35,154 bases of DNA from Deltaproteobacteria bacterium. Its GTDB lineage: Bacteria > Desulfobacterota > Syntrophia > Syntrophales > Smithellaceae. The notes under the pieces are model-generated. The model was given only the letters and a program-made list of their open reading frames with translations. It did no database searches and was not told the origin of the DNA. Made by a program: the position numbers and the translations under genes. Shown piece by piece: positions 7,209 to 24,245 of the stretch; position 1 is the first letter of the stretch; the number at the start of each line of letters is the position of its first letter. Location of the stretch: contig JANYAY010000148.1 in NCBI GenBank assembly GCA_025361065.1, positions 1 through 35,154 of the forward strand, read 5' to 3'.

Positions 7209-9167
7209 TCAATGACCTGATTTATCATCCAGGATTTTACGCAGATGAATGGCTATTTCGCCCATTGTGAAAGGTTTTTGAATGAAACCGACACAACCGC
7301 GATTGATGATCTTGCTGGCCTGACCATTTATACTGTAACCACTGGACAGCAGGACCTTAACATCAGGCTTAATCTTTTTGAGTTCATCAAAGATTTCACC
7401 TCCGCTCATTTCCGGCATAACCATATCCAGAATTACTAAATCGATAGATTCTTTTGCTTGTGTGCAAATATCTATTGCGGTTGAGCCATTCTGAGCAGTA
7501 AATACTTTGTATCCTAATGCTTTTAACAATTCCCTTCCTACATCCAGAATCAGAGATTCGTCATCAACTATCAGGATTGTTTCCGTGCCCCGGGACATTT
7601 CCCTGCTCTGTTCTGTTTCCTGTTCTTTAATTTTTGTATGTGCCGAAACCGGCAGATAAATAGTGAAGGTAGAACCATGCCCTTTTTCGGAATACACATT
7701 GATAAACCCATTATGGTTTTTGATAATGCCGTAAACAGAGGCTAGTCCCAGTCCGGCTCCCCGCCCCATCTCTTTGGTGGTGAAAAACGGTTCAAATATT
7801 CGTTCTTTTGTTCTTTCATCCATGCCGACGCCGGTATCGGTTATTGAAATCTTCACATAATGACCATTTTTGCCATTGTAATCTTTAAACCGGTTTTCTT
7901 CCAGAATGACATTGGATGTTCTCAGATAGAGGTCACCACCGCCCGGCATTGCCTGCCAGGCATTAACATAGAGATTGAGCAGCACTTGGTCGATTTGGCC
8001 CGGATCAACGTCTGTCAGACATAAATCGTCAGCGAGGGCGTGGTGGATGGTGATTTCTTTTTTGGTACGGCCAATTGTTTCTGATGCCCTGTAAATCAAA
8101 GAATTTATGTCCACTGTTTTTACTTCGTATTTGCCACCGCGGGCAAATCCCAATAATTGTTTAGTTAAATCCGCTCCACTCATAACCAGTGTCTCGATGG
8201 TTTTCAAGTGTTCGTGGATGGGTGTCTGCGGATCAATGAGTAACAGGGCTAAAGAAGCATGTCCTTGTATTCCCATCAGCAGATTATTGAAATCATGAGC
8301 AATGCCACCGGCAAGAGTGCCGATGGATTCCATTTTTTTCGCTTGTAATAACCGGGCTTCCGTTCTTTTTTGTTTGGTTATGTCACGCATGAAATTTAGT
8401 GTCGCCGGCTGATTATCCCAATCGACGACAAGACTATTTGTTTCTACCCAATGTGTCGAACCATCTTTGTCAATAATCCGGAAAGTGTAATTGTTGCTGG
8501 AGTTTTCTCCCCGCATAGAGCTTTGCTGCTGCTTATAAACCATATCGCGGTCCTCGTCTAAAACCAGATTGCGAAGAGAAGTATTCAATATTTCTTTGAG
8601 ATTATAGCCAAGCATTTGCGGAAAGCGTTTATTGGCGAAAGTTATTTTCTCCGCCTGAATGATAAATATTGCTTCATTGGAGTTTTCAATCAGCAGGCGG
8701 TATTTTTCTTCTGATTTCCGCAAGGCTTCTTCAGCCCGCCGGCGTTCGGTGATATCTTTGGAGACAATGGCGACGGCAATTTTTTTGGAAGAATCTCCAT
8801 TTTCTCTTACCGGACTGAATGTTCGCAAAAAGTATTCGGTTTTATTCGGGCTCTGATGTTCGTCCTGAATGGATTGCCCCGTAGCAAATACTTGTTTAAC
8901 TTTTTTTGTAAAATCCTGGCTTTGCTGAGGGGAATGAAAATCTTTATAAGAGTAACCGACAATTTTTTCCGCAGGCAAATTTAAACGATGCAAATGGTTG
9001 TCATTGATGAATAGATAACGTCCTTCCTCATCAACAAGATAAAGAGAATCACTTGTAGAATCGACGAGATAACGGTATTGGTTTCCGGATATTTCCATCT
9101 GGTGGATTTTTTGCTCTAAGTCCTTTATTCTATGGCCGAGCTCTTCGTATGTAAGGCTCTGTATCAT
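7209..9167 (-). CDS. PAS-PAS hybrid histidine kinase with C-terminal receiver
   Basis: Cytoplasmic hybrid sensor kinase of 652 residues with no membrane segment. Order: a short coiled coil (1-30), PAS 1 (~30-145, ending VSKDITERRRAEEAL), PAS 2 (~150-270, ending MRDITKQKRTEARL), HisKA with the phospho-acceptor His291 in GGIAHDFNNLL, HATPase_c with N box (LNLYVNAWQAM), G1 (DTGVGM) and G2 (GRGAGLGL), and a receiver domain with DD in IVDDES and the phospho-acceptor Asp581 in VILDMVMPEMSG. The conserved receiver Lys lies in FIQKPF. It is the last gene of a three-gene minus-strand operon: its ATG overlaps the stop of the macro-domain gene by 4 bp (ATGA). No dedicated DNA-binding regulator is adjacent, so the output is unknown. 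Confidence 0.93.
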   Translation of the reverse strand: MIQSLTYEELGHRIKDLEQKIHQMEISGNQYRYLVDSTSDSLYLVDEEGRYLFINDNHLHRLNLPAEKIVGYSYKDFHSPQQSQDFTKKVKQVFATGQSIQDEHQSPNKTEYFLRTFSPVRENGDSSKKIAVAIVSKDITERRRAEEALRKSEEKYRLLIENSNEAIFIIQAEKITFANKRFPQMLGYNLKEILNTSLRNLVLDEDRDMVYKQQQSSMRGENSSNNYTFRIIDKDGSTHWVETNSLVVDWDNQPATLNFMRDITKQKRTEARLLQAKKMESIGTLAGGIAHDFNNLLMGIQGHASLALLLIDPQTPIHEHLKTIETLVMSGADLTKQLLGFARGGKYEVKTVDINSLIYRASETIGRTKKEITIHHALADDLCLTDVDPGQIDQVLLNLYVNAWQAMPGGGDLYLRTSNVILEENRFKDYNGKNGHYVKISITDTGVGMDERTKERIFEPFFTTKEMGRGAGLGLASVYGIIKNHNGFINVYSEKGHGSTFTIYLPVSAHTKIKEQETEQSREMSRGTETILIVDDESLILDVGRELLKALGYKVFTAQNGSTAIDICTQAKESIDLVILDMVMPEMSGGEIFDELKKIKPDVKVLLSSGYSINGQASKIINRGCVGFIQKPFTMGEIAIHLRKILDDKSGH

Positions 9168-9718
9168 TTAGCTTCCATTGCTCCGGTCGAAAGTAATTTT
9201 TTAAATTCGCTGAAAAATATTTCATAAGTCTGCTGGTTAAATAAAATGTGGCGAACCAGCCTAATGCCGGTGTTTTCCCGGGCAAACTCAATGCATGTCT
9301 TAAGTGCCAGATGAGCTGCTTCATCTACAGGGTAGCCATAAATACCGGCGCTGATAGCCGGGAAAGAAATACTTGGCAAATTTTTTTTCACGGCGAGTTT
9401 TAAGCTTTCGCGGTAAGCACTTTGAAGGAGATTTGCTTCATTTCTGTTGCCACCGCGATAAATTGGCCCGACGGTATGAATAACATATTTTGCCTGAAGG
9501 TTGCCTCCGGTGGTAATGACGGCCTGCCCTGTCGGACAGCCGCCGATTTTACGGCACTGGGCCATAATTGACGGACCGCCGGCGCGGTGAATGGCGCCAT
9601 CAACACCGGCACCGCCTGCCAAGCGCTCATTGGCGGCATTTACTATGGCAGCGGTCGTTTCTGCGGTGATATCGCCACAAGCCAGCATGATTGTTGTTTG
9701 ATTAATCTTGGCTTCCAT
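9164..9718 (-). CDS. Macro-domain protein, YmdB-like O-acetyl-ADP-ribose deacetylase
   Basis: Single macro domain of 184 residues. The family motifs are present: GDIT followed by AAIVNAANERLAGGAGVDGAI (ADP-ribose binding, with the Asn and Asp of the NAAN...GVDGAI signature), AGGPSIMAQCR, YVIHTVGPIY and the phosphate-binding loop FPAISAGIYGYP. MacroD/YmdB-type proteins hydrolyse O-acetyl-ADP-ribose or remove mono-ADP-ribose from proteins. It begins 1 base after the stop of the permuted phosphoglycerate mutase and its stop overlaps the histidine kinase start, so all three genes are likely co-translated. The link to phosphoglycerate chemistry or signalling is inference. Confidence 0.92.
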   Translation of the reverse strand: MEAKINQTTIMLACGDITAETTAAIVNAANERLAGGAGVDGAIHRAGGPSIMAQCRKIGGCPTGQAVITTGGNLQAKYVIHTVGPIYRGGNRNEANLLQSAYRESLKLAVKKNLPSISFPAISAGIYGYPVDEAAHLALKTCIEFARENTGIRLVRHILFNQQTYEIFFSEFKKLLSTGAMEAK

Positions 9719-9719
9719 A

Positions 9720-11303
9720 TTATTGCTTTTGAACTTTTGTGCCTTCTCCGTAAATCAGCATCCGGTATGCTTTTTCAATTCTATCCCAGTTTTCCTCGCG
9801 GTCCATCGACCAGTAGCGGCCGATTACCGAGACAACCTGTCCTATATTTAATGATAATGATTTTTCTTCTATTTTTTTTATGTATTGAGGGCCGCTTTCC
9901 GGCAGTTCGCCGCGCCGTCCGAGCATGGAGTGAATAAAAAGATTTTCAATTCCTTGTGACGCGGCCATTTCCATCAGGGCAAAAAGATGATTGATGGATC
10001 CATGAGAACTGAAGAAGGAAACTATCCCGATCAGATGCAGCGCCTTGCCCGACTCTTTGGCTTTCCCCATGACGCTTAAAAAAGCATCATTCTGGTGAAA
10101 GGTCCTATTGGTGATAGCCAGGTCGATTTTCAACCGATCGGAATAAATTTTGCGGCCGGCGCCGATATGCAAATGTCCGGCCTCGGAATTTCCCACGGTA
10201 CCTGGCGGCAAACCGACAGCTTCTCCGGAGGCAGCAAGGCGCGATACAGGAAATCTGATCATGAGTTGATCCATAATCGGCGTTTGGGCGCGGGAAATGA
10301 GATTGGCTTCCGTGTTTTCATTTAGTCCCCAGCCATCCAGAATTATCAGCAATAATCTTTGCGAAGTGTCATTGCCGGTCAGCTTTTGCGAAATCAGCGA
10401 GGAACCTGTCATCAGGGGAGATAAGGGCAGACCAAGAATATCCAATACTGTCGGAGCTATATCGGTCAGTTCGCCATCTTTGCGCAAAGTCAACTCCTTA
10501 TTCGGGTGCAGCAGAATAAAAGGAACCGGGCTGTCCGTATGTCCTGTATCCACTGCTCCATCCGGATAAAGCCATTTTTCGACAGTGCCATGATCAGCAG
10601 TAACAATTACAGACATTCCTTTATCTCTGGCACTTTTAATAACCATACCGGCATGTTTGTCTACTGCTTCCACAGCGCGCAGAATTGCGGTTTCGTTTTC
10701 AATATGGCCAACGACATCAACATTAGGAAAATTAACAACGATAAAATTGCAATTATCATCGTCAATTTTATCCATTGTCGCTTTTGTTATCTTTTCGATG
10801 GACATTTCCGGCGCTTCATCAAACAGGGCGACATCTTTCCGGGTCGGGACAACAATTCTTTCTTCACCGGGAAGGAGCTCCTGTTTCTTGCCGTTGAAAA
10901 AAAATCCGACATGCACAGCTTTCTCTGCCTCAGTAATTTTTGCCTGTTTCATCTGATGCCGGGAAATAATGGCGCTTAAAACATCTTCCAGTGTTTCCTC
11001 CTGCGGGAAAGCAACCTGGACATTAAGCCCTTTTTGATATTCAATCATGGTGGCAAAATGCAAATCAAGATGAGAATTAACAGGAAATTCGGCGAAATTG
11101 TCTTCAGTTAAGCTGCGGGTTAATTCTATTTCCCGCTCGCCGCGAATGTTGTAAAAAATGACGGAGTCACCTTTACAAATTCTACCTGAGGGCTTACCTT
11201 GCGAGTCGGTTAAAATCAACGGCAGGAGGGTTTCGTCTTCCTGTCCTTCTTTGTATGCTTTGCGGACAGCTTCCGACATGGGGAAATTAAAATCTAAACT
11301 CAT
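9720..11303 (-). CDS. Circularly permuted cofactor-independent phosphoglycerate mutase
   Basis: Protein of 527 residues, close to the ~510 of GpmI, but with its two halves exchanged. Residues ~10-310 match the canonical second half: EAVRKAYKEGQEDE, FYNIRGEREIELTR, the TEAEKAVHVGFFFNG segment, metal ligands Asp196/His200 (NVDVVGH), Asp237/His238 (TADHG) and His255 (GHTDSP), then the usual C-terminal end ADIAPTVLDILGLP and MTGSSLI. After a ~10-residue linker comes the canonical N-terminus: LIILDGWG (Asp323), GEAVGLPPGTVGNSEAGH with the phospho-acceptor Ser373, then the first half of the transferase domain to YRMLIYGEGTKV. The cut lies in the loop just before the AVRKAYK helix. Two transferase loops deviate (SFFSSHGSINH, LGRRGELPESG). 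The start at 11303 has a weak AGGT-type site; upstream in-frame sequence is not conserved. First gene of an operon with the macro protein and the kinase. Activity as a mutase is likely but not certain. Confidence 0.9.
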   Translation of the reverse strand: MSLDFNFPMSEAVRKAYKEGQEDETLLPLILTDSQGKPSGRICKGDSVIFYNIRGEREIELTRSLTEDNFAEFPVNSHLDLHFATMIEYQKGLNVQVAFPQEETLEDVLSAIISRHQMKQAKITEAEKAVHVGFFFNGKKQELLPGEERIVVPTRKDVALFDEAPEMSIEKITKATMDKIDDDNCNFIVVNFPNVDVVGHIENETAILRAVEAVDKHAGMVIKSARDKGMSVIVTADHGTVEKWLYPDGAVDTGHTDSPVPFILLHPNKELTLRKDGELTDIAPTVLDILGLPLSPLMTGSSLISQKLTGNDTSQRLLLIILDGWGLNENTEANLISRAQTPIMDQLMIRFPVSRLAASGEAVGLPPGTVGNSEAGHLHIGAGRKIYSDRLKIDLAITNRTFHQNDAFLSVMGKAKESGKALHLIGIVSFFSSHGSINHLFALMEMAASQGIENLFIHSMLGRRGELPESGPQYIKKIEEKSLSLNIGQVVSVIGRYWSMDREENWDRIEKAYRMLIYGEGTKVQKQ

Positions 11304-15579: not shown

Positions 15580-16767
15580 ATGAAAACAGTGGCAATTATA
15601 CCTGCCGGTGGCGCGGGCCGGAGATTAAAAGCCGGGATAGCCAAGCAATATCTGCAGATAGAGAAGCTGCCGGTGTTAGTGCATTCTCTTAAAGTTTTCG
15701 AGCAGACGGCGATTATTGATAAAATTATTCTGGTTGTTCCGGAAAGTGATATAAAATATGTACAGGAAGAATTAATAATTAAAAATGGTTTGAAAAAAGT
15801 AGCAAAAGTTATTGCCGGTGGCGCAAAGCGGCAGGATTCAGTGAGAAACGGCCTTGCAGAAATTAATGATCACTGTGATATTATCCTGGTTCATGATGGA
15901 GTAAGACCCTTTGTCACTTCGGAAATGATCAGTCGGGTTGTTGATGTTGCCCATGAGTTCCAGGCTGCTTCTATTGGTGTAAAAGCGAAAGATACAGTCA
16001 AGGAAACGCGGGATGATGATTTTGTAGCCAGAACAGTACCGCGGCAGAATTTATGGCTTGTCCAAACTCCGCAGGCTTTTACTTTTGCCGTTTTGAAAGA
16101 GGCCTATGAGGCCGCTTATCGGAATAATTATTACGGCACCGACGATGCATCTTTAGTTGAACGAATCGGCGTAAGAGTTAAGATGATAGCCGGTTCTTAT
16201 GAAAATATTAAAATTACAACTCCGGAAGATCTGATCATTGCGGAAGCTTTGCTGAAAAATAAATCAGGGGGAGAAATGCCAATTCGCACCGGTCTGGGCT
16301 ATGACAGCCATCGATTTGTCACGGGAAGGAAACTTATCCTCGGTGGAATAGAGATTCCTCATGATCAAGGTCTGCAAGGGCATTCTGATGCCGATGCCCT
16401 GATTCATGCTGTTTGTGATGCACTTTTGGGGGCAGCGGGCGCGGGTGATATCGGTCGGCACTTTCCTGATACCGATCCGGCCTTTAAAGGTATTTCCAGC
16501 ATGATTCTTCTGGAACGTGTGCGCGAAATGATTGCGTTGAAAGGATTTTCCATTATTAATATTGATGCTTCAATTATTATGGAAAAGCCGAAACTGGCTC
16601 CCTTTGCCGGTGAGATTGCCGCAAATATAGCAAACGCTTTAAATCTGCCTGCTGCCGCTGTCAGTGTTAAAGCCAAAACAAATGAAGGTATGGGTTTTGT
16701 GGGCAGGAATGAAGGTATAGCGGTATTTGCCGTCGCCACAGTGATGGAAAGGAAAAATAATGGCTGA
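15580..16767 (+). CDS. ispDF: Bifunctional IspDF (MEP cytidylyltransferase / MECDP synthase)
   Basis: 395-residue fusion catalysing two non-consecutive steps of the methylerythritol phosphate isoprenoid pathway. Residues ~1-225 are IspD: PAGGAGRRLKAGIAKQY (CTP binding), GGAKRQDSVRNGL, VHDGVRPFV and the QTPQAF and YGTDDASLVER motifs. Residues ~235-390 are IspF: RTGLGYDSHRF with metal ligands Asp/His, LGGIEIPH, GHSDADALIHAVCDALLGA, FPDTDP and KAKTNEGMGFVGRNEGI. Both active sites look intact. Separate genes are the rule in many bacteria, while the fusion is known in alpha- and epsilonproteobacteria and some others. The stop overlaps the gltX start by 8 bp. Confidence 0.96.
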   Translation: MKTVAIIPAGGAGRRLKAGIAKQYLQIEKLPVLVHSLKVFEQTAIIDKIILVVPESDIKYVQEELIIKNGLKKVAKVIAGGAKRQDSVRNGLAEINDHCDIILVHDGVRPFVTSEMISRVVDVAHEFQAASIGVKAKDTVKETRDDDFVARTVPRQNLWLVQTPQAFTFAVLKEAYEAAYRNNYYGTDDASLVERIGVRVKMIAGSYENIKITTPEDLIIAEALLKNKSGGEMPIRTGLGYDSHRFVTGRKLILGGIEIPHDQGLQGHSDADALIHAVCDALLGAAGAGDIGRHFPDTDPAFKGISSMILLERVREMIALKGFSIINIDASIIMEKPKLAPFAGEIAANIANALNLPAAAVSVKAKTNEGMGFVGRNEGIAVFAVATVMERKNNG

Positions 16768-18560: not shown

Positions 18561-20132
18561 ATGAAATCCGCTATAGGAAGAATGATTCTAGTTTCTCTCC
18601 TTTTCGCCTTATTGCAGGCTTTTCCTGCTCAGGCCGCTCCGGAGCAGCGTTTGGCGCTGGTTATCGGCAACAGCAATTACAGCTCCGGACCGCTGAAGAA
18701 TCCCGTGAACGATGCCTCCGACATCGCGGTTTCCCTCCAGAAACTCGGGTTTACAGTGCTTCTCAAGAAAAACGTCAACATCAAAGAGATGGAGGCCGGC
18801 ATCGAGGATTTCGGCAATCGTCTGAAACGCGGCGGTGTCGGTCTTTTTTACTTTGCCGGCCATGGTCTCCAGGTAAATGGTATCAACTATCTCATTCCCG
18901 TCGGAGCCAAAATCGACAAGGAGTCGGACGTTAAATATGAAGCGGTAGATGCGGGGAAAATACTTGATGAAATGGCCAATGCCGCCAACGGCTTCAATAT
19001 TATAATCCTTGATGCCTGCCGGGACAATCCTTTTCATCAGCAGTTCCGTTCTGTCAGCCGCGGTTTGGCGATTGTCGGCAGCGCTCCCAAAGGATCATAC
19101 ATTTCCTATTCAACCAGTCCCGGCCAGGTGGCGCAAGACGGTGACGGCCGCAACAGCCCTTTTGCCGCCGCATTAATAAAATATATGAAGGAACCCGGCT
19201 GGACTATTGAACAGGTTTTTAAAAACGTCCGTCATCGACTGAGCCAGGATACGTTAGGCAAGCAGGTGCCCTGGGAATTGTCGTCTCTGGAAGGCGATTT
19301 TTTCTTCGTCCCCTTTAACAATAAAGGCACCGGCTATTCGAGGGATTTGTCCGATAGTAAGGACGCTGTTGCGGCAAGGACTAAACAATCAACCAAGGAA
19401 AGATCTTTTTTGGCCACAGGAGACACCTTTAGAGATACAGTCACCGGCATGGAATTTATTCCGGTTAACGCGGGATGTTTCCCGATGGGCGATAGCTTTG
19501 GTGACGGATTGCCTTCGGAAAGACCGCTTCATGAAGTCTGCGTAGACAGTTTCTACCTGGGCAAATATGAGGTGACTCAGGGGCAGTGGAAAAAGATTAT
19601 GGGAGGAAATCCTTCTCATTTCAAAGACTGCGGAGAGAACTGTCCGGTAGAGAGTGTAAGTTGGGCTGATGTTCAGTCCTTTATTGCGGAAATGAACAAT
19701 CTGAGCGGCCAGAAATATCGCCTGCCTACGGAAGCGGAATGGGAATATGCAGCCCGCGACGGCGGTAAGATGGTAAAGTGGGCTGGAACAAGCTCTGAGA
19801 GCAAACTTACCGACTATGCCTGGTACGATGCCAATTCGGGTGATAAAGCGCACCAGACAGGTCGGAAAAAGCCTAATGCGCTGGGATTCTATGACATGTC
19901 GGGCAATGTCTGGGAATGGACAAATGATTTGTACTCGGAAACTTATTACCAGAAAAGTTCCCGGGACAACCCTGCCGGTCCGCAAGAAGGTGAAAATCGT
20001 GTATTGCGCGGCGGTTGCTGGCTGGACCGGCCTGCCGATGTCCGTTCTTCGCTACGCTTTTTCTTTGCTCCAAAGACAGGTTTCAAAAGTATAGGATTCA
20101 GGCTGGTACGAATCTCTGGTGGTTCCAACTGA
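18561..20132 (+). CDS. Secreted caspase-like (C14) protease fused to an FGE/SUMF1 domain
   Basis: 523-residue exported protein. A signal peptide (1-26, ending PAQA) precedes a caspase-like p20 fold (~30-260) that opens RLALVIGNSNYSSGPLKNPVNDA. The dyad is His101 in YFAGHGLQ and Cys153 in ILDACRDNP, followed by SYSTSPGQVAQDG and NSPFAAALIKYM, typical of bacterial caspase homologues. Residues ~295-518 are a formylglycine-generating-enzyme-like (sulfatase-modifying factor) domain: FIPVNAGCFPMGD, YEVTQGQW, PVESVSWADVQSF, YRLPTEAEWEYAAR, GFYDMSGNVWEW, RVLRGGCW, IGFRLVR. A strong AAGGAGG precedes the start. Bacterial caspase-FGE fusions occur; FGE-like modules there may bind ligands or carbohydrates rather than make formylglycine. 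It precedes the G8-type protein on the same strand. Confidence 0.9.
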   Translation: MKSAIGRMILVSLLFALLQAFPAQAAPEQRLALVIGNSNYSSGPLKNPVNDASDIAVSLQKLGFTVLLKKNVNIKEMEAGIEDFGNRLKRGGVGLFYFAGHGLQVNGINYLIPVGAKIDKESDVKYEAVDAGKILDEMANAANGFNIIILDACRDNPFHQQFRSVSRGLAIVGSAPKGSYISYSTSPGQVAQDGDGRNSPFAAALIKYMKEPGWTIEQVFKNVRHRLSQDTLGKQVPWELSSLEGDFFFVPFNNKGTGYSRDLSDSKDAVAARTKQSTKERSFLATGDTFRDTVTGMEFIPVNAGCFPMGDSFGDGLPSERPLHEVCVDSFYLGKYEVTQGQWKKIMGGNPSHFKDCGENCPVESVSWADVQSFIAEMNNLSGQKYRLPTEAEWEYAARDGGKMVKWAGTSSESKLTDYAWYDANSGDKAHQTGRKKPNALGFYDMSGNVWEWTNDLYSETYYQKSSRDNPAGPQEGENRVLRGGCWLDRPADVRSSLRFFFAPKTGFKSIGFRLVRISGGSN

Positions 20133-20237
20133 TGCGAAACGGCTCCAATACACTTTGTGCTCTCAGAGCATCACAAGTAGTGTTGTTTTTCAATGCAGAT
20201 TGATTTTATTCGATTACCGGCAGTGAGGAGTATTCAG

Positions 20238-23200
20238 ATGTCCATTAAATGGCGAAAATGTTTAGTCTTGTTTTTTGCTGTTATCTCAGTTCTTCTGTTT
20301 TCATCCCCGGTTTTCGCAGGCCCTGCGGATGAGTGTACAGAGCAGAATACCTGGAAACCGGATTTTCAAAAAGGCCAGCCCGTCGAAATAAAAAACAAAA
20401 CAGTTTGTATCGGTCCCGGTGAATATCATTACGGCTTCGTCAACATCCACAGTAAAGGCAAACTGATTTTTAAGGATGCCGCTATCGATTTCTGGGCCAA
20501 ATCCATTCTGGTGGAAAAGGATGGCAGCCTGATTGCCGGGTCAGAGGATAATCCCATAAGCAGCAAAATTACAATCCATCTTTACGGCAAAGACGAGGGG
20601 CCGGGTATCACCTGCAAGACAACCTCCGGGCCGCCGGCAACCGCTGACACTATTTGTGGAGTTCCCCGTAAAATATGGACGGATGGCGGAATGCCGGAGG
20701 GAATGACCGCCAACTTTTACCGCTACAAGAACCTGCCGACTTATGATGACGAACAAGACGGTGATTATTATTTCGGCCGGAAGGTCCTGGCGGTTTCTTA
20801 CGGCGGTACCCTTCAGCTTTTCGGGAAAAAAGGTGCGGCCTATGCTGCTACTCCGGGAGTCAGTTGGACCCGACTGAATCATCCGGCCAACGCAACAGAT
20901 GTGACACTTGCCTTGGACAAGGCCGTGGACTGGCAAAAAAACGATCAGATAGTGTTGACAACGACGGATTTTCTGCCGGGGCATTCCGAAAAGCAGTCCA
21001 TTGAATATGTTGATGACTCCAGGAGACTTATCGAGATTTCCGACCGTAAAGGGGTTAAGTATTTTCATAACGGCATTAAATATCCAGTCGAAAAAACCTT
21101 GCCCGACCGCATGAAGGGGGCTCCGGGAATTCAGATCAAAGATGTGGAAACAAGGGCGGCGGTTGCTCTTCTTTCCCGGAATATCGTGATCAAATCGGAA
21201 GGCGACAATGATAATGAACAATTTTATGATGCAGAGAAAGAGACGCAAAATAAGCGGTACTTCGGCGGTCATACAATTGTCCGCCAGGGGTTTGCCAAGT
21301 ATCAGGTGCAGGGTGTGGAATTTTATCATTTAGGCCAGGGCGGGCGCATGGCGCATGCACCGGTGAATTTTCTGTTGACCCAGAATGTTCCCGCAGAAAC
21401 TTTTGTCCGCGACTGCTCCATCCACGATTCAATGTCACACTGGATCGAACTGCGGGGTACGCAGAATGTGTTTCTGGAAAGAAACATCGGTTACCTGTCC
21501 ATCGGACACGGCTTTGTTCTGGCCGACGGCACGGAGATAAATAATATTCTGCGCGGGAATATCGGAATTTACTCCAGGCCCGCAGTGGAATATCCGGACA
21601 ACCCCCGCAGGGTTCCCGGTGTTACAGCCAATGTTAAAAATACTGCATCCAATCTGCTGCAAAATGCCGGAGACGTGATTCATCCTTCGGTGTTTTTTAT
21701 TATGAACGGCTATAACACTTTTGAGGATAACATGGCCGCCGGGGCGGGTGCCTGCGGATCGTGCTATTGGTTTCCTCCCGCAAAAATGAGTGGTCTCTCT
21801 AAGGAAAATCCTTATAGTTTTTCCTGGGAGGGATACGCAGCTATCGGGCGTAATGAAATAGGGAAGGCTCCTATTTTTTCTTTCAAGGGCAATTTCTGTA
21901 CAACAGCCCAGAATTCTTTTGTCACAGTCGGCGCCGTCGGGTCCTGCAACGGTGTCTATTCAGATATGGCGCCCACTGATCCCTCGCTCAAACCCATCCC
22001 CAACCCCTATACGGACCAATATGTAAACCGTTCCTTTTTCCCTCAGGTATCTAATGCCGATTGGCTTGTGCCCACTATTTGTGCTCCCGGTGATAAAAAC
22101 GATCCTGATTCCTGCGGGACCGTGAACTCGGAGCAATATAAGTTTATGTGCGCGAAGGGACAGACACAGAACTGTTCGATAAGTGTTCTCGATTCTTATA
22201 CTTCTTCTTTCAACTGGGCGCAGCAGAACTTTTCCGCAATCTGGCTGCGGGGCAACTGGTTTCTCGTGACCAACAGTGCCTTGACGGATATCTTGAACGG
22301 CGGGCTGACCATGGTATCCGGGGGCACTTATGATCAGGTAGTCAACGGCTACTGGGCCCTGACCCGCCGGAGTGTTTTTGTCGGCAGCACCCAGAATAAC
22401 AATCCTTTTGCCACCAACGCCGGACCGGTCAATGCAGAGAGCAATTTGTCCTGTGAAGATGTGAAGGGCGGGAATGCGGCGCACTGTCTTCTGCGTAACG
22501 AGGGAATCAGCTTTCCGATGGACAATTTCTCCGTTTACCAGCGTTTTTATAATATTTACGATGGCCCTGTTTATCAGGAGACAAACGCTTATTTGAATAT
22601 TCGAACGAGGCGCCTGGTCTGTGAGGAAGGAGGCACCTGCAATTCCAGCCCATTCATGTATGGGCCTAAATCAAGAGGCATAGGGATTCCCAAGGCGCGA
22701 GAGAATTCGGGCGGTGTCGAATATAGTAAAGGTGTCGATGCTGCGGCCTCCATAAAGAAAGGCGATTGTTTCATGCCCAATGCGGCGATCGGCTGGAAGC
22801 AGCCCAATGGCTTCTATTATCCTCCGGCTTTCCATTCGAACAATCTGTTCTTCGATAACGTGGACTTGCGCCATTTTATCATTGTACCGCTCTTCGATCC
22901 GGGCAAAGGGAAAGCAAATCCGAATAAAGTAAAGAGCGAGTATTGCACTTATCCTTCCGGTGATCCCGGGACACTGTTTAGTTCCGATTTCTCCGATATC
23001 GACCGGCAGACCGAGCTCAATGATAATGACGGCACCCTGAGCGGACTGGCGGCGGCCGACCCTATTCAGATTCCCCGCAACGGAGGAACGATTTCCGTCA
23101 ACCGTGATAAGTTCTTCGATATGCCTGTAAACACGGTGGAGTGCCTTTCCCAGCAATCCTGCCTGCAAGCTCCGAATGATTACATAACAGCTGTTATCTT

Positions 23201-24245
23201 CGCTAATTGCGCCCGCCGCGATCTTGTCACAGGGCAGGCAGGCTCATGCAATGAATGGAAATGGAACAAGGAGTGCGAAAACCGCAAGTGTTACGGTGTG
23301 CCCATCTACCGGCAGTTGCTTAAAGATGATGAAACGGCCGGCCCCGAACAGTCGATCCGCATGATGGGAGGAGGTATTTCCCAGAGAAGCACGCTGCTTA
23401 GCAACAAGGGTGTTTATTATATCGATACAACCGTGAGCCGGGACACTCAGGCCAATGAGATTAAAGATATCCCGGGACTAAACGCAGACAGCCTGCGATC
23501 AACCCTTTTTGACGGTAACCATACATACGACTTCTTTCTTCTCTATGCCAAACCGGCGACTCGGGCAACCTTTCAGCTTTATGTAGGAAAAAATTTCAAT
23601 CCGCAGACCGGATTGAGATTCATCCGGGTCGGGCAAAATCATCACGATAAAGACTTGCGCGCAGATGATGCCTATGTTCTGTCTTCGCCGGTGCAAATCA
23701 ATGTCAGCGGTGCGGATAGTAAGCCTCTGACCTGGCCGTGGTCGCCGGCCGGCTTCGACAGCACTACCGGCATCCTGACCGTTACCATGGACTTGAGTGT
23801 TTTTGCCGATGACTTCAAAAAGGGCGTTCGCGAATCGTGCGGGCCGCCTTCTTTTTGTCAGTGGCAGCCCGATGCTAATCCCGCCAATGCCGATGGCGGG
23901 TCATGCGTAGCCAAAGTTTACCCTGCCGGGAAAAAACCGATCGGATACCAGCTCGACGATGCCGCATGCCAATGGTCGCTCAAGGCTGCGGAATGTCCGA
24001 GCGGCGGCTGCCCGGGGTTTCAGGTTGATTTTCCTGCCGGGTTTACAGCCGATGGTCAGAATCCGCGACCGACACCGGTGAAGTTTGCCGAATGCAATAA
24101 AATCGATCCTCAATGCAATGCCGATATCTGGAAGATAAAATGGGTTTATCCTGCGGACGGTTTGTCCAGAGATGCCAAACAGGCAAACTCCTGCGTGTAC
24201 GATAAAGATAACCCTCCAGCACTTCCCGACAAAAGTATCTGGTAG
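20238..24245 (+). CDS. Large secreted G8/CEMIP-like beta-helix protein
   Basis: 1335-residue exported protein. Signal peptide 1-27 (cleavage after VFA); start at ATG 20238 preceded by GAGGAG. Residues ~35-260 resemble a G8 domain and its flanks: LIFKDAAIDFWAKSILVEKD, GSLIAGSEDNPI, then VSYGGTLQLFGKKG, SWTRL (209-213), VDWQKNDQIVLTTTDF and HSEKQSIEYV. Residues ~330-465 read as a right-handed beta-helix: VQGVEFYHLGQGGRMAHAPV, FVRDCSIHDSMSHWIELRGT and IGHGFVLADGTEINNILRGN, which parallel CEMIP/TMEM2 and fibrocystin-L segments. The rest is cysteine-rich (over 30 Cys), suggesting disulfides, with no haem motif or C-terminal anchor. Animal relatives degrade or bind hyaluronan; whether this one is a polysaccharide enzyme is inference. 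Followed 20 bp later by a five-haem cytochrome gene. Confidence 0.75.
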   Translation: MSIKWRKCLVLFFAVISVLLFSSPVFAGPADECTEQNTWKPDFQKGQPVEIKNKTVCIGPGEYHYGFVNIHSKGKLIFKDAAIDFWAKSILVEKDGSLIAGSEDNPISSKITIHLYGKDEGPGITCKTTSGPPATADTICGVPRKIWTDGGMPEGMTANFYRYKNLPTYDDEQDGDYYFGRKVLAVSYGGTLQLFGKKGAAYAATPGVSWTRLNHPANATDVTLALDKAVDWQKNDQIVLTTTDFLPGHSEKQSIEYVDDSRRLIEISDRKGVKYFHNGIKYPVEKTLPDRMKGAPGIQIKDVETRAAVALLSRNIVIKSEGDNDNEQFYDAEKETQNKRYFGGHTIVRQGFAKYQVQGVEFYHLGQGGRMAHAPVNFLLTQNVPAETFVRDCSIHDSMSHWIELRGTQNVFLERNIGYLSIGHGFVLADGTEINNILRGNIGIYSRPAVEYPDNPRRVPGVTANVKNTASNLLQNAGDVIHPSVFFIMNGYNTFEDNMAAGAGACGSCYWFPPAKMSGLSKENPYSFSWEGYAAIGRNEIGKAPIFSFKGNFCTTAQNSFVTVGAVGSCNGVYSDMAPTDPSLKPIPNPYTDQYVNRSFFPQVSNADWLVPTICAPGDKNDPDSCGTVNSEQYKFMCAKGQTQNCSISVLDSYTSSFNWAQQNFSAIWLRGNWFLVTNSALTDILNGGLTMVSGGTYDQVVNGYWALTRRSVFVGSTQNNNPFATNAGPVNAESNLSCEDVKGGNAAHCLLRNEGISFPMDNFSVYQRFYNIYDGPVYQETNAYLNIRTRRLVCEEGGTCNSSPFMYGPKSRGIGIPKARENSGGVEYSKGVDAAASIKKGDCFMPNAAIGWKQPNGFYYPPAFHSNNLFFDNVDLRHFIIVPLFDPGKGKANPNKVKSEYCTYPSGDPGTLFSSDFSDIDRQTELNDNDGTLSGLAAADPIQIPRNGGTISVNRDKFFDMPVNTVECLSQQSCLQAPNDYITAVIFANCARRDLVTGQAGSCNEWKWNKECENRKCYGVPIYRQLLKDDETAGPEQSIRMMGGGISQRSTLLSNKGVYYIDTTVSRDTQANEIKDIPGLNADSLRSTLFDGNHTYDFFLLYAKPATRATFQLYVGKNFNPQTGLRFIRVGQNHHDKDLRADDAYVLSSPVQINVSGADSKPLTWPWSPAGFDSTTGILTVTMDLSVFADDFKKGVRESCGPPSFCQWQPDANPANADGGSCVAKVYPAGKKPIGYQLDDAACQWSLKAAECPSGGCPGFQVDFPAGFTADGQNPRPTPVKFAECNKIDPQCNADIWKIKWVYPADGLSRDAKQANSCVYDKDNPPALPDKSIW

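Follow-up and report, generated by a model that had tools for sequence, protein, structure and literature searches.

A circularly permuted relative of cofactor-independent phosphoglycerate mutase, probably with a changed substrate, in Syntrophales and other mostly uncultured bacteria

The window (the whole stretch of DNA analysed, 35,154 nucleotides) encodes a protein which, judged from its sequence, is a clean circular permutation of the cofactor-independent phosphoglycerate mutase (iPGM). We consider it most probable (about 0.6) that this is a once-permuted and neofunctionalised iPGM paralogue, which would carry out a phosphoserine-type phosphotransfer or mutase reaction on another small phospho-acid and would not be the 2PG/3PG mutase of the cell. 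The gene and its parts are arranged as follows:

9720-11303, minus strand: permuted iPGM-like gene, 527 aa, ATG at 11303, stop at 9720-9722, open reading frame intact
10392-11273, minus strand: residues 11-304, matching canonical residues 218-509 (phmmer against 1EJJ)
10356-10391, minus strand: residues 305-316, linker from the canonical C-terminus to the canonical N-terminus
9738-10355, minus strand: residues 317-522, matching canonical residues 6-211 (phmmer against 1EJJ)

Against 1EJJ, the iPGM of G. stearothermophilus, phmmer finds two segments, each collinear, whose order is swapped (202.9 and 202.3 bits); no piece is duplicated in the 527-aa protein, and only residues 1-5, 212-217, and 510-511 of 1EJJ, around the old and the new termini, stay unaligned. 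We take residues 11-304 to hold the second half of the transferase domain followed by the phosphatase part with Asp403, His407, Asp444, His445, and His462, and residues 317-522 to hold the phosphatase part with Asp12 and Ser62 followed by the first half of the transferase domain. The order Asp12/Ser62 segment, transferase domain, metal-site segment, which belongs to the definition of GpmI, is not the order of the window protein. The initial annotation had read the same exchange of halves from the letters, with nothing lost or duplicated and a linker of about ten residues; the alignment bears this out, and the linker measures 12 residues. A full-length alignment in canonical order, named there as a possible refutation, was not obtained, as the alignment splits into the two swapped pieces. 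The linker has 8-18 residues in 92 of the 93 distinct members of the family and 60 in one; a permuted homologue with a 60-residue linker lies at L105 8001-9701, by position in the same genome as G153 and G460.

Among the Pfam and NCBIfam profiles, TIGR01307, PF01676, and PF06415 (iPGM_N) each match the window protein in two stretches. The iPGM equivalog TIGR01307 reaches 481.6 bits summed over both, above its cut-off of 330.65, while NF003897 stays below its own (389.7 bits, cut-off 862). PF01676 (Metalloenzyme) gives 200.6 bits in two stretches and, together with the metal-site motifs, places the protein in the alkaline phosphatase superfamily.

The full-length predicted model is confident (mean pLDDT 86.7, pTM 0.82) and, along with the sequence, supports the clean permutation that had been proposed initially. 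VIA-align superposes model residues 8-305 on residues 215-510 of 1O98 and 1EJJ (Z 22.2, 293 residues, rmsd 6.0-6.1) and residues 7-306 on the S. aureus iPGM 4nwj (Z 22.1, 291 residues, rmsd 2.1). The iPGM matches in the PDB, by both Foldseek and VIA-align, reach only model residues of about 6-307, which is one half. Such coverage would be expected of aligners that keep residue order, as we assume these to do, if the rest stands in the wrong order, and it is not itself a proof. Folded alone, the second half gave a poor model (pLDDT 62.1).

The permuted proteins comprise a separate group among iPGM homologues. Removal of exact copies reduced 147 loci to 93 sequences, no two of which exceed 95% identity and which form 84 clusters at 90%; these were placed in a tree with 53 canonical proteins and one reference, after every sequence had been rotated into the same order of halves. 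All 93 permuted proteins lie on one side of a single branch (FastTree local support 1.0, length 0.63; IQ-TREE SH-aLRT 100, length 0.70). After rerooting, FastTree gave 0.719 at the permuted node, which we take as a shifted label, given the value of 1.0 before rooting and the SH-aLRT of 100. These sequence data indicate that iPGM was circularly permuted once, in an ancestor, and that the members form a single clade. All 63 two-piece homologues fetched (the 53 and ten from genomes holding both kinds) have the canonical order, and the canonical order is the one occurring in the superfamily, which is why we regard it as ancestral. In the permutation, a short linker within the phosphatase domain would have connected the former termini, and the transferase domain would have been cut near canonical residues 212-217 to give the new ones. 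Tandem duplication followed by trimming is a plausible route; no tandem iPGM copies, the intermediates of duplication, were noticed among the fetched loci.

The amino acid composition of the pocket distinguishes the permuted from the canonical proteins, although the chemical core is the same. The segments concerned are the following:

11130-11147, minus strand: residues 53-58, IRGERE, equivalent to canonical 260-265 (FRADRA type); Arg261 and Arg264 kept, Asp263 changed to Glu, Glu at 265
10185-10187, minus strand: Ser373, equivalent of the catalytic Ser62, Ser in 93/93
9996-10022, minus strand: residues 428-436, VSFFSSHGS, where canonical proteins mostly have (V/L)SDGGVHSH or alike; His123 kept
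9906-9920, minus strand: residues 462-466, GRRGE, in place of canonical DGRD plus T/V (151-155); Arg153 kept, Asp154 lost

The metal ligands and the nucleophile (Asp12, Ser62, Asp403, His407, Asp444, His445, and His462, in what we take to be B. stearothermophilus numbering) are kept in all 93 permuted proteins, as are His123, Arg153, Arg185, Arg191, Arg261, Arg264, and Lys336, presumably the set which binds the anion or substrate. For the C. elegans iPGM, the residues corresponding to the former are given as metal sites in passages of PMC5382265. In the permuted proteins, the loops in which His123 and Arg153 lie have a different sequence. V122S, D151G, G152R, D154G, D263E, and M404V occur in 93/93 permuted proteins and G409E and N447T in 91/93, all these positions having the canonical letter in 53/53 canonical proteins; position 155 is Glu in 93/93 permuted versus 3/53 canonical proteins. 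Canonical copies were examined in ten of the 20 class genomes with both kinds, and all ten keep Val122, Asp151, Gly152, Asp154, Asp263, Met404, Gly409, and Asn447. Positions 404, 409, and 447 are distant from the new termini in sequence, and since the phosphatase half is thus altered too, the changes would be hard to read as a mere repair of these termini. Asp154 presumably acts toward the acceptor hydroxyl in iPGM; a literature search for this role did not return it. Both Asp154 and Asp151 of the DGRD loop belong, like the canonical order of halves, to the defining features of GpmI, and since neither feature is found here (Gly at both positions in 93/93), we class the family as iPGM-derived and not as GpmI.

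Three known systems were compared with the family. With GpmI (TIGR01307; 1EJJ, 1O98) the permuted protein shares both domains, the Ser nucleophile, the remaining six metal-site residues, and the anion-binding Arg/Lys/His set, with an identity per half of about 34-46% to nearer and about 29-37% to more distant canonical proteins; it differs in the order of halves and, in 93/93 members, in Asp151, Asp154, and several pocket residues, and in most genomes counted it occurs beside an orthodox PGM. The archaeal-type PGM apgM (PRK04135, PRK04200; PF10143), which we take to belong to the same superfamily, is matched weakly (TIGR00306, 36.7 bits), and apgM proteins of about 400 aa exist separately in the same genomes. 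Phosphopentomutase DeoB is also a weak match (TIGR01696, 22.3 bits), and its structure 4n7t aligns over 173 residues (Z 11.4, rmsd 2.7) only with model residues 103-308, a part of the phosphatase domain.

We suppose that the product of the permutation became a separate enzyme which kept the two-metal, serine-nucleophile phosphotransfer chemistry. Ser373 would accept the phosphate and hand it on inside a pocket which the two domains close together, with the anionic substrate bound by Arg54, 57, 464, 496, and 502 and Lys128. The pocket presumed to recognise the glycerate hydroxyls would have been rebuilt: Asp151 and Asp154 are lost, position 152 is Arg, and positions 155, 263, 265, and 409 carry Glu. 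The enzyme would thus most likely move or remove phosphate on a different small phospho-acid. That this is not 2PG/3PG is suggested by the loss of the acids presumed to read the glycerate and by the added arginine, and that it is a small phosphorylated acid by the retained arginines. We infer both the phosphoserine chemistry and the changed substrate from residue patterns. Counted against this reading are the persistence of all Arg, Lys, and His residues which presumably bind glycerate and phosphate in iPGM, the TIGR01307 score, and the lack of a neighbour conserved across phyla.

The first two of these points would fit an ordinary PGM in permuted form, whose changed loops compensate for the permutation and in which the invariant Glu155, already present in three canonical proteins, could be a stand-in for Asp154; it might be a second or regulated PGM used, e.g., in gluconeogenesis. 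The invariance of the nucleophile, the metal ligands, and the His/Arg/Lys set in 93/93 proteins agrees with this, and so does the frequent position of the permuted protein as the only iPGM homologue of its genome: by our count, 46 of 66 class bearers and 19 of 20 bearer genomes from the named loci lack a canonical copy. Against it stand the replacement by Gly, throughout the permuted set, of two aspartates which none of the 53 canonical proteins lacks, the changes in the phosphatase half away from the new termini, and the distribution of PGM kinds among genomes, where orthodox PGMs displace one another and not the permuted protein. We regard an ordinary PGM as less likely, though it is the strongest competitor.

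For this distribution we used 92 good genomes of the host’s class (at least 90% complete, at most 5% contaminated), with presence lists compiled manually from profile and homology searches. The orthodox kinds were canonical iPGM, dPGM (TIGR01258 above cut-off), and PRK04135-type aPGM (E 1e-75 or better), the aPGM tally including four below cut-off (G012, G029, G087, and G147). Fragments in G031, G085, G093, G094, and G123 and the long-linker form in G153 were counted as permuted-present, fragments or partial matches in G059, G060, and G131 as canonical-present, and weak matches in G043, G047, G087, and G089 (E 4e-16 or weaker) as neither kind. Exactly one orthodox kind occurs in 81 of the 92 genomes, two in five, and none in six; in 20,000 shuffles, exactly one kind fell to 42 genomes on average and to 62 at most. 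Canonical iPGM, dPGM, and PRK04135-type aPGM thus nearly exclude one another across the class.

The permuted gene does not take part in this exclusion. An orthodox PGM is present in 43/46 permuted bearers versus 43/46 non-bearers (Fisher p = 1.0, kinship ignored) and is absent from three of the 46 good bearers (G033, G067, and G098) versus three of the 46 non-bearers; in all 155 class genomes it is absent from 9/66 bearers versus 14/89 non-bearers. Bearer genera have canonical iPGM (g5, g38), dPGM (g12, g14), or aPGM (g1, g6, g31), and non-bearer genera likewise have canonical iPGM (g2, g8), dPGM (g41, g20), or aPGM (g4, g18), so that the contrasts in PGM kind recur across genera. The window’s own genome has a PRK04135-type aPGM (573.9 bits, above cut-off), and the permuted protein is the sole iPGM homologue found in it. 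Nineteen further bearers (G441-G459; G460 was left out as the same genome as G153) have no dPGM above cut-off and all have a PF10143 protein, and one of them (G454) has a canonical iPGM. Of four PF10143 proteins typed outside the class, three were PRK04135 and one (G454) PRK04200; higher-scoring PF10143 proteins, beside a gene which by eye is homoserine dehydrogenase-like, are PRK04200-type and were not counted as aPGM. In G447 (Chloroflexota), it is the aPGM gene, and not the permuted gene, that adjoins a phosphoglycerate-kinase-like gene.

These data indicate that the presence of the permuted gene is independent of the presence of an orthodox PGM, which speaks against a housekeeping PGM role for its product. 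We rejected the idea that the permuted gene serves as the sole PGM of its bearers, as good genomes showing no orthodox PGM are equally frequent with and without it, although the permuted protein could be the PGM in the three good bearers concerned. The identity as phosphoglycerate mutase assigned in the initial annotation is thereby put in doubt: Asp154 and its loops are replaced in all permuted proteins examined, and the gene is distributed without regard to orthodox PGMs.

A further possibility is that the protein acts as a phosphatase and not as a mutase: with Asp154 missing, water would take over the phosphate from Ser373, perhaps for clearing a damaged or toxic phospho-acid. The loss of this residue, with the role toward the acceptor hydroxyl that we ascribe to it, would agree, and genes of hydrolase families lie downstream in two lineages, as follows for the window:

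9164-9718, minus strand: macro-domain gene, starting 1 nt after the stop of the permuted gene

A macro-domain gene lies at most 400 nt downstream in 42 of the 78 loci having more than 700 nt there, all within L081-L127; counting one shorter locus, it follows in 43/47 loci of L081-L127 and in 0/32 later loci with room. In three Chloroflexota loci, a gene of the histidine-phosphatase family stands directly after the permuted gene (L134 9554-10177, by Pfam, with a homologue in L138 and L155). However, neighbours differ between phyla, and the whole transferase domain is kept with its arginines; according to passages of PMC5382265, this domain helps to close a solvent-inaccessible site in iPGM. Hydrolysis as the main activity is quite improbable, and a phosphotransfer or mutase reaction on another small phospho-acid is still our preferred reading.

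Among the 63 of 80 loci compared, short or near-duplicate contexts being left out, no neighbour conserved across phyla was found; ORF calling missed the permuted gene in six of the loci in this comparison (L112, L113, L120, L121, L142, and L143). Because the neighbours differ between lineages, no function can be deduced from them. The neighbourhood of L223 resembles that of the window, with CarD, a LysM-type protein, PCMT, a small protein, the permuted gene, and the macro-domain gene, except that in L223 one additional gene separates CarD from the LysM protein; the names were read from the sequences, except that PCMT and macro in the window come from Pfam.

The search for homologues with the same order, proposed at the outset, found full-length collinear matches, and therefore the same permutation, in 60 of 155 genomes of the host’s class, the window’s own included; six further class genomes have fragments or the long-linker form. 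In a phylum sample, 14 of 297 genomes (own included) have such matches, seven of them class members, and in the phylum labelled Chloroflexota (that of G456) 2/301 genomes have the permuted protein. A scan of species genomes gave 384 relatives, and the best 80 of the 384 are all permuted with near full-length matches. The record labels of these best 80 include 52 Deltaproteobacteria/Syntrophales or like, 15 Aminicenantes, 5 Chloroflexota, 3 WOR-3/Stahlbacteria, and one each of Zixiibacteriota, Armatimonadetes, Clostridiales, and candidate division B38; labels may be wrong or contigs misbinned, and four contigs outside the Deltaproteobacteria/Syntrophales group exceed 100 kb. The G081 genome, which carries the permuted copy L223, is a single contig of 3,179,300 bases. 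It also has three PF10143 matches, in agreement with the three archaeal-type iPGMs given for S. aciditrophicus in passages of Foster and others (PMC2964296).

Between the window gene and two relatives of 83-85% identity, dN is 0.08 and 0.10 versus dS of 0.69 and 0.71, an about seven- to ninefold excess of synonymous over nonsynonymous change per site, which points to purifying selection on the permuted gene. We found no supporting points for an artefact of assembly or binning, or for two partial genes having been fused. Both are practically precluded by the recurrence of the same order in 60/155 class genomes, in all of the best 80 loci, and in the single-contig genome (which also removes the assembly error considered in the initial annotation, and chance with it), by one open frame in each case with nothing lost or duplicated, and by this selection.

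It is unusual for an enzyme of central metabolism to have become circularly permuted in nature and for this form to be fixed throughout a large clade, and to our knowledge this is the first case for iPGM. Among 5.39 million open-access papers, a collection with few subscription papers and no preprints, no title reports a circular permutation in phosphoglycerate mutase, in iPGM, or in the alkaline phosphatase superfamily; together with the canonical order in 63/63 two-piece homologues, this agrees with the initial remark that no standard iPGM has such a layout. The word stem “permut” is absent from the main text of PMC2964296, and PMC5570346, on phosphoglucomutase 1 paralogues, is by its title on another subject, as are five other papers found. 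We would give even odds that the permuted proteins represent an unrecognised family across several phyla of mostly uncultured bacteria, combining the first natural iPGM permutation with a new specificity, and that they perform a phosphotransfer or mutase step unassigned to any gene. The iPGM profile adds up the two halves and exceeds its cut-off, so that an enzyme doing other work may be entered as glycolytic in metabolic models of syntrophic and uncultured bacteria. Should the altered pocket reflect a new substrate, these organisms would have an unassigned reaction, which is testable with one protein.

Three other genes of the window, all on the plus strand, are worth noting. Positions 15580-16767 encode an IspD-IspF fusion, a single protein for two isoprenoid-synthesis steps, and positions 18561-20132 a caspase-domain (Peptidase_C14) protein fused to a formylglycine-generating-enzyme-like domain. 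The 1350-aa protein at 20193-24245 has a G8 domain and a CEMIP-type beta-helix, which are known mainly from animals.
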